In this document: positions 16,762 to 28,078 of the stretch, in pieces
How the letters are laid out: each line of letters begins with the position of its first letter
How positions within the stretch are numbered: the stretch's first letter is position 1
Source: Brevibacterium renqingii
GTDB taxonomy: Bacteria > Actinomycetota > Actinomycetes > Actinomycetales > Brevibacteriaceae
Reading direction: 5' to 3'
Length of the DNA: 64,000 bases
Assembly (NCBI RefSeq): GCF_017808105.1
Contig: NZ_JADBHF010000010.1
Coordinates: 62,001-126,000, forward strand
Notes under the pieces: model-generated
What the model saw: only the letters and a program-made list of their open reading frames with translations
What the model was told of the DNA's origin: nothing
Databases searched by the model: none
Made by a program: the position numbers and the translations under genes

Positions 16762-18196
16762 TTACTTGAACCCGATGTCACGCGGGGTGACGGGGGCAGG
16801 CAGCCGCGTCGATCCGGTGAGGTACCGGTCGACCTCGGCGGCCGCGGCACGTCCCTCCGCGATCCCCCAGACAATGAGCGACTGGCCGCGGCCGGCGTCT
16901 CCGGCGACGAAGACACCGGCGGTCGCGGTCTGAAAGGAGTCGTCGCGGCAGAAGGCTCCTGACTCATCGAGGTCGAGGCCGAGCGCTTCGGATTCGGGGC
17001 CGGAGAAGCCGAGGGCCAGCAGGACGAGATCGGCGTCGAGCACGTGTTCTGTGCCCGGGGTCGGGATCCGGCGTCCGTCGAGGAACTGCGTCTCGGATAC
17101 CTCGATGCCGCGGACCGCTGAGTTCCGGTCGCCGACGAAACCCGTGGTCGAGGCCAGGTAGCGCCGGACGCCTCCCTCCTCGTGCGAGGTCTGGACCTCG
17201 AAGATCCGCGGAACCGTCGGCCAGGGATCGCTCTCGCTGCGTTCGGTGGGAGGCTTGTCCCCGATCGCCAGGGTCGTCACCGAGGCGGCTTTCTGTCGCA
17301 GGGCCGTGCCGAGGCAGTCGGCGCCCGTGTCGCCGCCGCCGATGATGATGACATGTCTGCCCGCCGCGTCGATACCCGGAACGGAGTCCTCACCCGCCTG
17401 AGCCCTGTTCGAGGGCACGAGGTAGTCCATGGCGAATTCGACGCCTGCGAGTTCCCGTCCGGGCACGGGCATGTCCCGCGGCACCGTCGCACCGGTGCAC
17501 ACGACGACGGCGTCGAAGCGAGCTCGGACGTCCTCGAGCGTGAGTTCCGCGCCGATCTCGACCGCGGTCTCGAAGCGTGTGCCCTCGGCCCGCATCTGTT
17601 CGAGCCGGCGGTCGATGTGGTGCTTCTCGAGTTTGAAATCGGGGATCCCGTAGCGCAGGAGCCCGCCCAGGCGCTCGTCGCGTTCGTAGACGACGACCGT
17701 GTGTCCGGCCCGAGTCAGCTGCTGGGCGCAGGCGAGTCCCGCAGGTCCGGAGCCGATGACGGCCACGGTATGCCCGGAGATCCGGTCAGGGATCTCCGGG
17801 GCGATGAGGCCCGCGGCGAATCCCTGGTCGACGATGCTGACCTCGACCTGTTTGATCGTCACCGGCGGTTGGTTGATGCCGAGCACACAAGCGCTCTCAC
17901 ACGGGGCCGGACAGGCCCGGCCGGTGAATTCCGGGAAGTTGTTCGTCGCGTGCAGGAGTTCCACGGCGCGCGAGAGCTCGCCGCGGTGCATCGCGTCGTT
18001 GAATTCCGGGATGAGATTGCCCAGGGGGCACCCCTGATGGCAGAAGGGCACACCGCAGTCCATGCAGCGAGACGCCTGGCGGCGCAGCTGCTCGGGATCG
18101 CCTTCTTCGTGGACCTCGCGAAAGTCCATCAGCCGGATCGGAACGGGTCGCCGCTTCGGCAGCTCACGGTCGGTGACGGTGAGGAATCCGTGCGGA

Positions 18197-18204
<8 letters not shown>
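16762..18204 (-). CDS. gltD: Glutamate synthase (NADPH) small subunit
   Basis: 480 residues. It passes electrons from NADPH through FAD and Fe-S clusters to GltB. The N-terminal cluster ligands are CMDCGVPFCHQGC (from about residue 42) and CPAPCESAC (near 97). The FAD site is VIGSGPAGLACAQQL and the NADPH site is IIGGGDTGADCLGTA. The ATG overlaps the gltB stop by 8 bases (ATGGCTGA), so the two are translationally coupled. Confidence 0.97.
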
Positions 18205-22897
<4,693 letters not shown>

Positions 22898-22984
22898 CAG
22901 CTGCCTTCCCGGTGCGGTGCTTCCGAAAAGACGGCGCTGTCCTCTGCGGTTCGGACGTGTCATCGGAAGAGTTCCGAGGACTCA

Positions 22985-23079: not shown

Positions 23080-24189
23080 TCAGCGCTCGGGACTTGAGGG
23101 CTCCTGTCCCGAAGACGGCGCCTCCACCCGGGCTCCGGGCTGGACACCCGTCCGGCCGCGGACATCGGGCACGATGGAGATCGCGGAGGTCACCGCACCG
23201 AAGAATCCGAAGCTGTGCGCACCTCGGAGGGCGATCGCTTCCTCGTCGTCGGGAGCGGGCGGCTGCGCCGCCCCGGCCGCTCGTGCGGCTTCCTGACGCG
23301 CGATGGACGGATGGCCGGCACCGGTGTCCGCGGCCGTCGGGTCCTGCGTGGACCGATCTGCCGGCCGCCGAACGTTCGTGCCGGTCCCCGTCTCGACGAC
23401 ATACGGTATGGATCCCGTCATCGGCGCGTTGACTTCGTATGTGTGCTTGCCGCGATCGCGACGTCGGATCAGGGTGCGGGCCTGATGGACGTAGACGCCG
23501 CGCTCCTGCGTCCGGTGACGCAGCCGCGAGACGATCAGCCAGACGAACCCGACGAACAGGGTCAGTGCAGCGGTCCACACATTGAGCGAGAGGCCCAGCA
23601 CCTCACGAGCGTGTGCCGCCGCCGGGGTGCCGATGCGCAGCGCCTCCAGCATGACTCGGCCGAGCCCGAAGAGGCACAGGTAGAGGGCGAAGACCTGCCC
23701 GTAGCCCAGACGCAGCCGCTTCGAGATGATGATGAGGGCGATGCAGCCGAACAGGTTCCATGCCGATTCGACGATAATGGACGGCAGGTTGACCCTGCCG
23801 TCGAACCAGTCGCCCCAGGCTCCGGCCACCTGACCGAGGATGAGGCCGGGAGCGACCGCATCGAGGAAGGGCAGGATGCGGATTCCCTGATATCGCGTGA
23901 GCAGCACGGCGGTGACCAACCCGACGAGCAGCGCGCCCCAGAAGCTGAATCCGCCGTCCCAGACGGCCAGCGCCCGCAGCGGGCTGATGCCGGGTCCGAA
24001 ATAGGTGTCCAGCGACAGCAGCACATGACCGAGACGACCCCCGACCACGGCTGCTGGGACCGTGACCACCGTGATCGCCCACAGGTCGCCCTTGTGACCA
24101 CCGCGTGCTCGCCATTGGATCGCCGTCATCCACAGGGCTAGGCCGATGCCGAGGATGACGAACAGGGCCCATGCCGGGCTGAAGCTCAT
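23080..24189 (-). CDS. lgt: Divergent prolipoprotein diacylglyceryl transferase (Lgt) family protein
   Basis: 369 residues from the ATG at 24189, which overlaps the trpA stop (ATGA) and has AGAAGG 6 bases upstream. The start of the family fold is clear: GGRLGHVLLSLDTYFG, VWDGGFSFWGALLVG, FLDAVAPGLILGQ, and a late GRVMLEALR helix. Its position after trpA matches lgt in mycobacteria. However, the Lgt signature G-R-x-G-N-(F/Y)-x-N-x-E reads GAWGDWFDGR here, so the essential Arg and Asn are lost. The arm segment of about 45 residues that normally follows is missing. A hydrophilic tail of about 130 residues is predicted disordered. Canonical lipoprotein-lipidation activity is therefore doubtful. 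Confidence 0.75.
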   Translation of the reverse strand: MSFSPAWALFVILGIGLALWMTAIQWRARGGHKGDLWAITVVTVPAAVVGGRLGHVLLSLDTYFGPGISPLRALAVWDGGFSFWGALLVGLVTAVLLTRYQGIRILPFLDAVAPGLILGQVAGAWGDWFDGRVNLPSIIVESAWNLFGCIALIIISKRLRLGYGQVFALYLCLFGLGRVMLEALRIGTPAAAHAREVLGLSLNVWTAALTLFVGFVWLIVSRLRHRTQERGVYVHQARTLIRRRDRGKHTYEVNAPMTGSIPYVVETGTGTNVRRPADRSTQDPTAADTGAGHPSIARQEAARAAGAAQPPAPDDEEAIALRGAHSFGFFGAVTSAISIVPDVRGRTGVQPGARVEAPSSGQEPSSPER

Positions 24190-24977
24190 GCACATCCTTC
24201 TGCGAGTTCGGCAGCGAGTTCGCCGAGCCCGCGCACCCCATCGGTGTCGAGGGACTTGACCAGCGCGGATCCGACGATGACGCCGTCGGCGTAGTCGGCG
24301 ACCTCTGCGGCCTGGGCGCGCGTGGAGACTCCGAGTCCGACACAGGCCCGCTGAGCGCCGGCCTCTCTGAGTCGGGAGACGAGGTCACGTGCGTGGTTGT
24401 CGACCTCGGCCCGGACTCCGGTCACGCCCATGGTGGACGCGGCATAGACGAATCCGCGCGTCTGGGCGACGATGCGTGCGATGCGCTCGGGTGTGGACGA
24501 GGGTGCGGCCAGGAAGATCCTGTCGAGGTCGTAGTCGTCCGAGGCGGCCAACCAGGGATCGGCTTCGTCCGGGATGAGGTCGGGGGTGATGATCCCGGCC
24601 CCGCCGGCGGAGTCGAGATCGCGGGCGAAGTCGGCGATGCCGTATTGGACGATGAGGTTCCAGTAGCTCATGACCACGGCCGTGCCGCCCGCCTCGGCGA
24701 TGGCGGAGACGGCGGTGAGCACGTCCCTGGTCCTAACTCCGCCCTCGAGCGCCCGTTCCGCGGCTCGCTGGATGACCGGGCCGTCCATGCCCGGGTCGGA
24801 ATAGGGCATTCCGACCTCGACGATGTCGACGCCGGACTTCACGAGTTCGACCATGGCCTCGATCGATCCCTCGACCGAGGGGAAGCCGACGGGAAGGTAG
24901 CCGATGAGGGCGGCCTTGCGACCGGCCTCGGCGACGGCGGTGAGAGTCGTGCCCGTGCGGGGACCTGCTGCTGTCAT
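24186..24977 (-). CDS. trpA: Tryptophan synthase alpha subunit
   Basis: 263-residue TIM barrel that cleaves indole-3-glycerol phosphate to indole. The catalytic Glu54 and Asp61 lie in [18 protein letters not shown]. The ATG overlaps the trpB stop by 4 bases (ATGA), fitting the obligate alpha2beta2 complex. Its stop overlaps the lgt start. Confidence 0.97.
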
Positions 24978-26188
24978 ACCTGCACAGCTCCTTCGTCGAG
25001 GTAGTCGAACCATTTGGCGGCGGTCGTCATGTCCTTGTCGCCGCGGCCGGAGAGATTGACGAGCAGAACTGCGTCGGGACCGAGTTCGCGGCCGACGCGC
25101 ATGGCACCGGCCAGAGCATGTGCCGATTCGATCGCGGGAATGATCCCTTCGGTGCGCGAGAGCAGGCGCATGGCCTCCATCGCGTCCTCGTCGACGACGG
25201 GTTCGTAGGTGACCCGTTCGATGTCGTGGAGGTGGGAGTGCTCGGGACCCACCGACGGGTAGTCGAGGCCGGCCGAAACCGAGTGCGAGCCGCGAGTCTG
25301 GCCGTCCTCGTCCTGCAGGATGTACGTGGCGGACCCGTGGAGGACGCCGGGCCGCCCGCCGGAGAAGCGGGCCGCGTGACGGCCGGAGTCGATTCCCTCT
25401 CCCCCGGCCTCGAAGCCGAAGATCCTGACGTCGGCATCGGCGAGGAAAGCGGCGAAGATGCCCATCGCGTTCGATCCTCCTCCGACGCAGGCGCAGACGG
25501 CGTCGGGCAGACGCCCGGCCGCCTCGATGATCTGTTCGCGGGCCTCGATGCCGATGACGTTCTGGAAGGAGCGGACCATCGCCGGGAACGGGTGCGGTCC
25601 GGCGACGGTGCCGATGACGTAGTGGGTGGCGTCGACGTTGGCCACCCAGTCCCGCATGGCTTCGTTCATCGCATCCTTGAGCGTGCGGGTGCCATTGGTC
25701 ACCGCATTTACCGTGGCGCCGAGCAGACGCATGCGCGCGACGTTGAGAGCCTGACGCTGAGTGTCCTCCTCGCCCATGTAGACGACGCACTCCATGTCCA
25801 GCAGAGCCGCAGCCGTCGCGGTGGCGACCCCGTGCTGACCGGCGCCGGTCTCGGCGATCAGACGGGACTTGCCCATGCGCTTGGCCAGCAGTGCCTGGGC
25901 CACGGCGTTGTTGATCTTGTGGCTGCCCGTGTGGTTGAGGTCCTCGCGCTTGAGGAACACACGAGCGCCGCCGCAGTGCTCGGCGAAGCGAGTGGCCTCG
26001 GTGAGCAGCGAGGGCCTGCCGATGTAGCTGCGCTGCAGCTCGAGGAGTTCGTCGGTGAAGGCGGGATCGACCTGGGATTTGCGCCAGGTCTCCTCGATCT
26101 CGTCGAGCGCCGGGATCAGCGCTTCGGGGATGAATCTGCCTCCGAACTCGCCGAAATACGGCCCGGTCTCCTGGCTCACATCGTTCAT
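24974..26188 (-). CDS. trpB: Tryptophan synthase beta subunit
   Basis: 404 residues from the ATG at 26188 (MNDVSQ), with GAAGGA 5 bases upstream; 7 more upstream codons are open but lack an RBS. It is the PLP enzyme joining indole and serine. The PLP Lys91 is in [10 protein letters not shown] and the phosphate loop is GGGSNAMG. It lies between trpC and trpA. Confidence 0.97.
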
Positions 26189-26240
26189 TGCGGTCCTTCT
26201 CGATCTCAACGTCGTCGGGTGAGGTGCGACCTCGCTCCCG

Positions 26241-26308: not shown

Positions 26309-27106
26309 TCAGGATGCGGACAGCCGGCGGCGCTCCCGGCCGATGGCTGTGTATTCCTCGACCGCGGCCTGCGGTCGGCCCCCGGTGACGAGGGCCTCGC
26401 CGACCAGCACGAGGTCGGCTCCGGCATCCGCGTACTTCGTGACCTCCGCCGCACCGGCGACGCCCGATTCGGCGACGAGGGTGCATCCCTGCGGGGCCAG
26501 ATCGGCCAGCGGCGCGAATCGGTCGGTGTCGACGCTGAGGTCCTTGAGATTGCGCGTGTTGACTCCGATGAGTTCGGCGCCGAGGTCGGCGGCGATCTCC
26601 AGCTCTTCACGGCTGTGGGTCTCGACGAGCGCGGTCATGCCCAGTTCCTTCGCCAGAGCGTGGAACTCACCCAGCTGCACGGGATCGAGGGCGGCCACGA
26701 TGAGCAGGACGATGTCGGCGCCGTGGGCACGAGCCTCATGGAACTGGTATTCGTCGACCATGAAGTCCTTGCGCAGGACCGGGACGTCGACGGCGGCCCG
26801 GACCGCATCGAAGTCGTCGAGGCTGCCGGAGAAGCGGCGGGACTCGGTGAGGACGCTGATGGCGTGAGCACCGCCGGCGGCGTAGAGGCCGGCCAGTGTG
26901 CCCGGATCGGGGATGTGGGCAAGGTCGCCGCGAGACGGCGACTTCCGTTTGACCTCGGCGATGACTCCGAAGTCGGCGTGGAGAGCGAAGGGGCGGACGG
27001 GTTCGGCCGCCTCGGCTCGGGCGATGATCTCCGGGAGCGGAAGGTCCCTCCGGCGTGCCTGCAGATCCTCACGCACGCCGGAGATGATCTCGGCCAGTAC
27101 CGTCAT
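26309..27106 (-). CDS. trpC: Indole-3-glycerol phosphate synthase
   Basis: 265-residue TIM barrel of tryptophan synthesis. Catalytic residues are visible in AEVKRKSPSRGDL, VLRKDFMVDEYQ and the ELIGVNTRNL segment, and the phosphate-binding end is VLVGEALVTGG. The ATG at 27106 overlaps the preceding stop by 4 bases (ATGA). Confidence 0.96.
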   Translation of the reverse strand: MTVLAEIISGVREDLQARRRDLPLPEIIARAEAAEPVRPFALHADFGVIAEVKRKSPSRGDLAHIPDPGTLAGLYAAGGAHAISVLTESRRFSGSLDDFDAVRAAVDVPVLRKDFMVDEYQFHEARAHGADIVLLIVAALDPVQLGEFHALAKELGMTALVETHSREELEIAADLGAELIGVNTRNLKDLSVDTDRFAPLADLAPQGCTLVAESGVAGAAEVTKYADAGADLVLVGEALVTGGRPQAAVEEYTAIGRERRRLSAS

Positions 27107-27372
27107 TTGGTCTTCGGCTTGTTGCCCAGTCCGACTGCGCGCAGGATGAGGCCGACGACGACGCCGAGAGCGACGATGCCGATGGAGATGTAGGTGATCA
27201 TCGCATTGTGGATCGTGAAGCCGACACAGCCGACGGAGACGCCGATGAGCATGATGATGACACCGGTCCACCCCGCCACCGAGTTGCCGTGGCCGGGATC
27301 GGCGATCGCTGCGTAGTCGATCGTGGATTTGTCGAGATCTGTGGCCCCGTTGCGGGCGAGGGACTGCGACAT
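27103..27372 (-). CDS. HGxxPAAW-type small membrane protein
   Basis: 89 residues from the ATG at 27372, with AAGGAG 4 bases upstream. It has two membrane helices and the segment DPGHGNSVAGWTGV, a variant of the HGxxPAAW motif for which the family is named. Such proteins lie just before trpC in many actinobacterial trp operons. Function is unknown; the location suggests an accessory role in tryptophan metabolism or transport. Confidence 0.85.
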   Translation of the reverse strand: MSQSLARNGATDLDKSTIDYAAIADPGHGNSVAGWTGVIIMLIGVSVGCVGFTIHNAMITYISIGIVALGVVVGLILRAVGLGNKPKTK

Positions 27373-27442
27373 GGCGCTCCTTAGAGTGACAGGCGTGGCA
27401 CGCGTGTGGAAACTTTCCTCCATTGTGTCACGCTTCGTGGGC

Positions 27443-27464
27443 TGACCGGACACCGACCCGGTCA
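27443..27464 (-). terminator. Hairpin between the Trp membrane protein and the HGxxPAAW gene
   Basis: A 7-bp perfect stem TGACCGG/CCGGTCA with an 8-base loop starts 5 bases after the upstream stop codon, in a 97-base gap. It may reduce read-through from the his-trpE part into trpCBA. No U-tract follows. Confidence 0.35.
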
Positions 27465-27469
27465 CAAGG

Positions 27470-28078
27470 TCATTTCGAATCCGGGTCGTCCGCATCGATG
27501 CCGGTCTCGGCGTCGTCCGCGTCGACGTGCGACTGTGCGCCGGACCCCGTCACATGGCCGGTCTCCGTCTCAGAGCCGGGACCGTCGGCGATCTCCTCGC
27601 CGCGGGAGAGCGCGTCCCAGGTCGCAGCCGAATCGAACTCTCCTTCGGCGGCTTCGGCGCTGCGAGCGTACCGGTTCGAGTTCGTCCACCCCGCCGAGGC
27701 GGTCGCGACCCAGACGATTCCGATGGTTCCGATGCCTGCGGCGACGGCCGCGATGATCGGCCAGGCGGTCGCTCCGGGGGCCGAGGCGGCGAAGAGCGCG
27801 GTGATGCCGTAGCCGACGGCTGCGATCCCCGCGAGTCCGAGCACGACGAAGCGTCCGGCCCGGCCGAGCATTGCGGCCAGCAGGCCGGTCACCGCGATGA
27901 TGGCCACGCAGGCGGTGGCGACGGGAGAGGCCTGCGAGCTCGGGTCCTCGGCGACGGTGGCCACACCGCTGGGCCCGAGGGTGTCTCCCACGGCACCGGC
28001 CTGCCAGGACGAGATCGTCAGCGCCCACAGGCCGGCGGCGATGACGAGGACGATGAGGACTCCGCGTGACTTCGACAT
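27470..28078 (-). CDS. Trp biosynthesis-associated membrane protein
   Basis: 202 residues with four predicted helices (first GVLIVLVIAAGLWALTIS) and an acidic hydrophilic C-terminus. Size, topology and place after trpE match the actinobacterial Trp-operon membrane family (TIGR02234 type). The biochemical function is unknown. It starts 6 bases after trpE. Confidence 0.85.
   Translation of the reverse strand: MSKSRGVLIVLVIAAGLWALTISSWQAGAVGDTLGPSGVATVAEDPSSQASPVATACVAIIAVTGLLAAMLGRAGRFVVLGLAGIAAVGYGITALFAASAPGATAWPIIAAVAAGIGTIGIVWVATASAGWTNSNRYARSAEAAEGEFDSAATWDALSRGEEIADGPGSETETGHVTGSGAQSHVDADDAETGIDADDPDSK

Follow-up and report, generated by a model that had tools for sequence, protein, structure and literature searches.

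The locus studied here raises the question of why a bacterium should keep, at the usual place of lgt behind trpA, an Lgt homologue devoid of the catalytic signature of the family, and what such a protein could still do. The window, i.e., the whole stretch of 64,000 nucleotides of Brevibacterium renqingii DNA that was analyzed, shows on its minus strand the gene order trpB-trpA-X-gltB-gltD, where X is the gene under study (23080..24189). Its neighbors were assigned by profile matches: trpB (24974..26209; TIGR00263, 600.6 bits), trpA (24186..24977; TIGR00262, 205.7 bits with a cut-off of 102.35), which overlaps the start of gene X, gltB, next downstream (18197..22963; glutamate synthase large subunit, 1553.9 bits), and gltD (16762..18204; TIGR01317, 623 bits). 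Gene X encodes a degenerate Lgt with a C-terminal, putatively cytoplasmic tail. The likely start is the ATG at 24189, which forms an ATGA overlap with the trpA stop and yields 369 amino acids; an alternative ATG at 24195 would yield 371 (open reading frame 23080-24195, 371 codons, minus strand). Within the trp operon, the window also encodes a small membrane protein with the sequence HGNSVAGW (27103-27495), which resembles the HGxxPAAW proteins known from trp operons of actinobacteria.

The degenerate Lgt encoded behind trpA

The preliminary description of the window had taken the product of gene X for an Lgt homologue at the trpA-lgt locus that keeps the membrane scaffold, and both points were borne out. 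The seven-helix domain (residues 9-221; 23533..24171, minus strand) matched Pfam LGT with 109 bits (E 2.8e-31; cut-off 24.9). The score with the lgt equivalog profile TIGR00544 was 75.4 bits, below the cut-off of 118.9, which the intact trp-locus Lgt of one relative passed with 165.9 bits. The AlphaFold2 model contained seven helices, with pLDDT mostly around 90 or more, a short TM4-TM5 loop, and a tail of low confidence from about residue 250 (pLDDT below 50, predicted as disordered). Compared to solved structures, the best match of the model was 5azb (Z 18.0; 3.6 Å, 215 residues), with 7.1 for the next one, so that the protein is, as far as the prediction goes, a seven-helix Lgt fold. The resemblance to canonical Lgt (PF01790; E. 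coli, 5azb/5azc) extends to GGR, WDGG, Arg239, Arg246 and the position after trpA; unlike canonical Lgt, the protein is without Tyr26, Arg143, Asn146 and the periplasmic head, bears an invariant tail motif, and coexists with an intact Lgt encoded elsewhere.

The signature was read in the preliminary description as GAWGDWFDGR, with loss of the Arg and Asn, and this reading is correct. It lies at residues 125-134 (23794..23823, minus strand), with the changes R143 to A, N146 to D and E151 to R, as against GRWGNWFNQE in 22/22 intact trp-locus Lgts of Brevibacterium. In the 19 degenerate Lgts of the genus, the Arg143 position is always Ala, and the Asn146 position is Asp in 18 and Glu in one. The Glu151 position is Arg in 19/19, and the Tyr26 segment is deleted in all of them, with about 13 residues gone from the start of TM1. 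The degenerate version is open in 19/19 species, with no internal stop, and this, together with the Ala and Arg that all of them have in common, rules out chance or sequencing error.

The claim of a missing stretch directly after the signature was right as to the deletion itself, while its assignment to the arm and its length of about 45 residues did not hold. The lost residues are those of the periplasmic head, which lies between TM4 and TM5 and in E. coli Lgt comprises E151-P197 (PMC4728403); eight residues remain, compared to 38-43 in the nearest intact homologues, i.e., 30-35 are absent.

Considering these losses together, the degenerate Lgt is probably catalytically dead. According to PMC4728403, the E. 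coli mutants R143A, R143E and R143K are inactive, R143A being more thermostable and similar in its lipid-binding pattern. Tyr26, His103, Arg143, Asn146, Gly154 and Arg239 are listed as absolutely required in E. coli Lgt (PMC13251419, section 13). The change of Glu151 was left out of the evidence for inactivity because the two sources conflict on E151A, inactive in one (PMC4728403) and supporting growth in the other (PMC13251419). The His103 position is Trp in the window protein, and likewise in 20/22 intact relatives.

Other residues were kept or newly fixed. Arg239 and Arg246 persist in 19/19 degenerate Lgts each and Glu243 in 18/19, so an altered lipid chemistry is still conceivable. After the last helix there is a juxtamembrane basic block, RTLIRRRDRGKH (residues 240-251; 23443..23478, minus strand), recognized in the alignment of trp-locus Lgts as RTLxRRxxRGKH; R240, R244, R245, R248, G249, K250 and H251 are invariant in the 19 degenerate proteins, and the block is absent from the nine intact Lgts aligned. 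It is a possible second interaction site. A126 and R134 are further invariants of the degenerate domain. One of the alignments of trp-locus Lgts took 20 of the 41 sequences.

The tail and its three carriers

The C-terminal tail ends in a motif that was not mentioned in the preliminary description. In the window it reads FGFFGAVTSAISIVP (residues 329-343; 23167..23211, minus strand), and it occurs in 57/57 genomes of the genus, with 10 of the 15 positions invariant (F, G, G, A, T, S, I, S, I, P). Each of the 35 Brevibacterium genomes searched gave a single strong match. The motif is followed by 10-53 variable residues. From known Lgt topology and the positive-inside charges, namely the arginine-rich stretch after the helix, the tail would be cytoplasmic. 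Its predicted disorder fits a docking peptide and proves nothing.

trpA was present in all 57 Brevibacterium genomes with gene X behind it, the position after trpA being inferred in G032, where the gene is cut by a contig edge and the motif is on another contig. Three types of gene X were distinguished: intact Lgt plus tail in 22 genomes, degenerate Lgt plus tail in 19, the window included, and a single helix plus tail in 16. The single-helix proteins have about 100 residues (94-125 where a start was assigned), and all 16 show one hydrophobic helix; in G033 there is no in-frame ATG, GTG or TTG between trpA and the helix, and the motif was counted from the open frame. No Pfam-A family exceeded its cut-off with the two of these 16 proteins that were scanned, and a plasmid match search with one of them gave none. 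The distance from helix to motif is 16-61 residues in the single-helix type, 49-101 in the intact type (21/22 measured) and 71-128 in the degenerate type. Such wide variation indicates that the length of the tether is free.

Outside Brevibacterium, the only occurrence found was in the Lgt of a sister genus, which carries the tail as FGAHGAMTSNIRIVPE; among three other genomes of the family, the tail appeared only in G058 (E 7e-12, the G058 variant having been included in the alignment). Profile A1 over 297 genomes of the order gave 24 matches, all in Brevibacterium. With the core profile A2, applied to 396 genomes of the order, strong matches were obtained in 35 genus genomes, none of the genus being listed without one, and the next best match had an E of 0.03. 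Over 394 genomes of the class, strong matches were confined to the two genus members, and the next best (E 0.0096) was taken as chance. FGxxGAxTSxIxI was absent in any frame from 71 other Lgt loci outside Brevibacterium, mostly of named Actinomycetota, nothing similar was seen by eye in the last 70 residues of 36 other actinobacterial Lgts, and no relative was found in the PDB (best E 1.3). A literature search with most subscription journals outside its reach found no paper on the Brevibacterium Lgt tail. M. tuberculosis Lgt resembles the present case in having a large extension of no known homology after its last helix (PMC13251419); FGxxGAxTSxIxI, in contrast, was seen in Brevibacterium and one sister genus only.

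Concerning selection, the motif showed no amino-acid difference among the 19 degenerate genes, with synonymous sites differing as elsewhere (pS 0.29), and the adjacent linker gave dN/dS values of 0.33-0.54. For the degenerate Lgt domain, the pairwise dN/dS values, when pooled, were 0.22-0.25 across all 19 species and 0.07-0.16 for subsets of more closely related ones, to be compared with 0.16 and 0.07-0.10, respectively, for TrpA. The domain is thus under purifying selection, which indicates that it is in use and not merely decaying; its own selection and its own invariants suggest that in its clade it does more than hold the tail. In the single-helix type, dN/dS was 0.40 for the helix part, 0.16 for the motif, 1.0 for the residues behind it and 0.08 for TrpA, so the motif is less strict there; these values were obtained with 13 of the 16 genes, as was the single-helix origin comparison.

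These data bear on the idea of a pseudogene on its way out, retained solely for its place in the trp operon. The stem branch of the degenerate Lgts is long (1.17 changes per column), and the loss of Lgt parts grows across species, as would be expected of decay. Yet the frame is open in every species that has it, the motif does not change, and the dN/dS of the domain contradicts decay, so that this idea is hardly credible.

The tail could also be a cis element that controls the next gene, as a nascent-chain arrest peptide, an RNA structure or a promoter. A protein of about 100 residues with one helix and a conserved C-terminal peptide does recall arrest peptides, MifM being a membrane-inserted one. 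In its codon entropy, the motif does not differ from invariant columns taken from trpA, trpB and gltB; the deviation is 0.03 bits, and 60% of draws made at random were equal or lower. This places the constraint on the protein and not on RNA or DNA. The T-S-I-S-I codons taken alone had an entropy lower than background by 0.19 bits; as 13% of draws fell equally low, this is no clear departure, and a small nucleotide-level constraint may exist there. Against a cis element stand this ordinary synonymous variation of the whole motif, the 10-53 variable residues that follow it, and the identity of the downstream gene. In the 21 intact-type genomes with the next gene visible, this is gltB in 12 and pyk in nine, pyk also being found in G058, with the motif unchanged; the tail is therefore not tied to one downstream gene. 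Control of the next gene in cis is accordingly a very improbable function of the tail.

A second Lgt without tail

The preliminary description had offered two readings, a second canonical lgt elsewhere with a new role for the present gene, or a lineage that lipidates its lipoproteins with an altered enzyme, and had suggested looking for an intact second lgt and building an Lgt tree. A short, tail-less Lgt was found in the same genome at G000:C6:41975-42733, with 308 amino acids, the intact signature GRFGNWFNQE and the Tyr26, R239, E243 and R246 positions present; it passes TIGR00544 (146.1 bits). This supports the first reading as far as sequence goes, and disfavors the second. The second Lgt would be the one that carries out lipidation. 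Monoderm Lgts tried in E. coli do not restore lgt function there (PMC13251419).

A short Lgt is present in 34 genomes, 19/19 of the degenerate type and 15/16 of the single-helix type; the exception is G049 (89% complete), where no Lgt gene was found. The 22 intact-type genomes have no Lgt besides the trp-locus copy. Therefore, in 56/56 Lgt-bearing Brevibacterium genomes the presence of the short Lgt matches the loss of the catalytic part at the trp locus (22 without short Lgt and intact, 34 with it and lost). The tail motif is absent from 34/34 short Lgts.

The short copies make up a single clade of the Lgt trees (support 99), and this clade is joined to L166 and L174, which come from another family of the same order (support 100); the trp-locus Lgts, intact and degenerate, group with genomes of their own family (support 95 with 20 order outgroups, 92 with five). 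The short Lgt therefore did not arise by duplication within the genus and, to judge from these trees, is foreign in lineage to the trp-locus Lgt. The first tree took five of the 22 order outgroup Lgts and left out G049, and the repeat took 20 of these 22, 11 of the 34 short and six of the 19 degenerate Lgts; one set of Lgt rows comprised 36, namely the window and 35 of the 55 extracted from 80 loci. The short Lgt may have been gained several times, or may be old in the genus and later lost where the trp-locus Lgt stayed intact; what bears on this is that it forms one clade in the trees, yet occupies two sites in the genus.

As to these sites, an aminotransferase-like neighbor was observed in the main group (30/34 loci), and in G023 and G001/G033 the gene is near yebC/ruvC-like genes, gene names being assigned by eye in both cases; the loci covered were G000:C6:41975-42733, L051-L069 and L086-L100. 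The survey of the order also revealed six LGT matches in one genome and four in another (G329 and G146).

Second or divergent Lgts have been described before. In M. smegmatis, also an actinobacterium, the second Lgt is MSMEG_5408, in which residues are likewise altered (Y26H, N146C) and activity is presumed to be low; it differs in that the accessible description reports neither loss of Arg143 or the head nor a surviving tail (PMC13251419). A divergent Lgt-like subgroup from Deinococci, Acidimicrobiales, Anaerolineales, Acidobacteriales and Myxococcales also is without Arg143; by its description, it is without R239 too, a residue kept in the window protein, and it belongs to other phyla or orders (PMC13251419). 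For such Lgt-like proteins without R143 and R239, another substrate or mechanism has been suggested in the same source. By analogy, gene X might encode an altered but active lipid transferase, using another donor or acceptor, and its conserved fold, its R239, E243 and R246 and the purifying selection on its Lgt domain would agree with that. It is nevertheless an improbable explanation, considering that Tyr26, Arg143, Asn146 and the head are gone, that an intact Lgt is present, and that three other lineages dropped the whole domain and kept the tail.

The distribution of the short Lgt suggests still another role. The dead copy, or the single-helix remnant, might bind an enzyme that matures lipoproteins, be it the foreign Lgt or another one, as a replacement in trans of a regulation formerly exerted by the tail in cis. 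The tail is fused to the sole Lgt in 22 genomes and is on a separate protein exactly where a tail-less Lgt is present, and inactive relatives of membrane enzymes often regulate the active ones. On the other hand, the genes are unlinked, the short Lgts lie at two different sites and the contact is putative, which makes regulation in trans possible, if rather doubtful. By sequence, it looks the same as the explanation preferred below.

Order of events and a proposed role of the tethered tail

Outgroups carry an intact Lgt after trpA, so the intact state is ancestral. The degenerate Lgts are one clade (support 100) inside the intact trp-locus Lgts. The single-helix genomes occupy three branches of the TrpB+TrpA tree and also of the GltB+GltD tree, i.e., the Lgt part was lost repeatedly. 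A single origin of the single-helix state was tried as a constraint and rejected, both for one clade (p-AU 9e-64) and for the three outlying genomes alone (1.6e-5). All trees were made by a quick method, and the GltB+GltD tree took 33 of the 49 genomes with gltB and gltD. G023 is placed differently by the two trees. The GltB+GltD tree also mixes degenerate and intact lineages (L033-L050, L131-L136), in contrast to the TrpB+TrpA tree, which separates them; this is a sign of recombination downstream of gene X.

The single helix fits TM1 of Lgt best (20-column block, 11 of 500 shuffles as good; 28 columns, 17 of 500). When the block had 34 columns, TM7 fitted as well as TM1 (49 of 500), and there was no fit in the degenerate profile. 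These comparisons are suggestive of a derivation from TM1 of Lgt; the change would then be an internal deletion that kept the start and the tail.

The explanation preferred for the whole set of observations, with a probability of about 0.6, is that the old Lgt had a second role borne by its tail, that a foreign Lgt took over catalysis, and that the remnant serves as an anchor for the tail. The ancestral trp-locus Lgt would have been a protein with two functions, a membrane diacylglyceryl transferase with a flexible cytoplasmic tail ending in a short docking peptide (FGxxGAVTSAISIVP). Once lipid transfer had passed to a tail-less Lgt whose relatives are in another family of the order, the old copy, freed of catalysis, would have lost its active site and its substrate-binding head. 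It would persist as a seven-helix, non-catalytic scaffold in the clade of the window, and would have shrunk to a single inward-pointing helix in three other lineages, selection having kept a membrane-tethered cytoplasmic peptide everywhere. This order of events is the one we infer from the trees and gene contents. Since the genome encodes an intact Lgt and sister lineages make do with the tail, a non-catalytic anchor of a docking peptide is the simplest account, and the tethered peptide would most probably bind a partner in the cytoplasm or the membrane. The retained Arg239-Arg246 pair and the purifying selection are also compatible with a dead scaffold that binds lipid or has a structural role. 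There is slightly more reason to accept than to doubt the wider proposal that the tail module outlived the enzyme through at least three takeovers by foreign Lgts, leaving anchor remnants, and that the dead scaffold of the window's clade was recruited as well, acquiring new invariants. So, it can be said that the interpretation of the preliminary description was partly supported; besides the C-terminal motif, the sister species with the tail only were absent from it.

Lgt is commonly regarded as an enzyme with one purpose and as a drug target; the single Lgt of C. glutamicum is reportedly non-essential, to go by the title of Dautin et al. 2020 (cited in PMC7775120). In Brevibacterium, nature has seemingly made the domain deletion three times, the catalytic domain being dispensable when another Lgt is present and the tail staying in place. 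If the preferred explanation is true, Lgt would couple lipoprotein maturation to a cytoplasmic process, at least in Brevibacterium. The single-helix proteins of about 100 residues would be a minimal bait for the partner, and the tails of other actinobacterial Lgts merit the same look.
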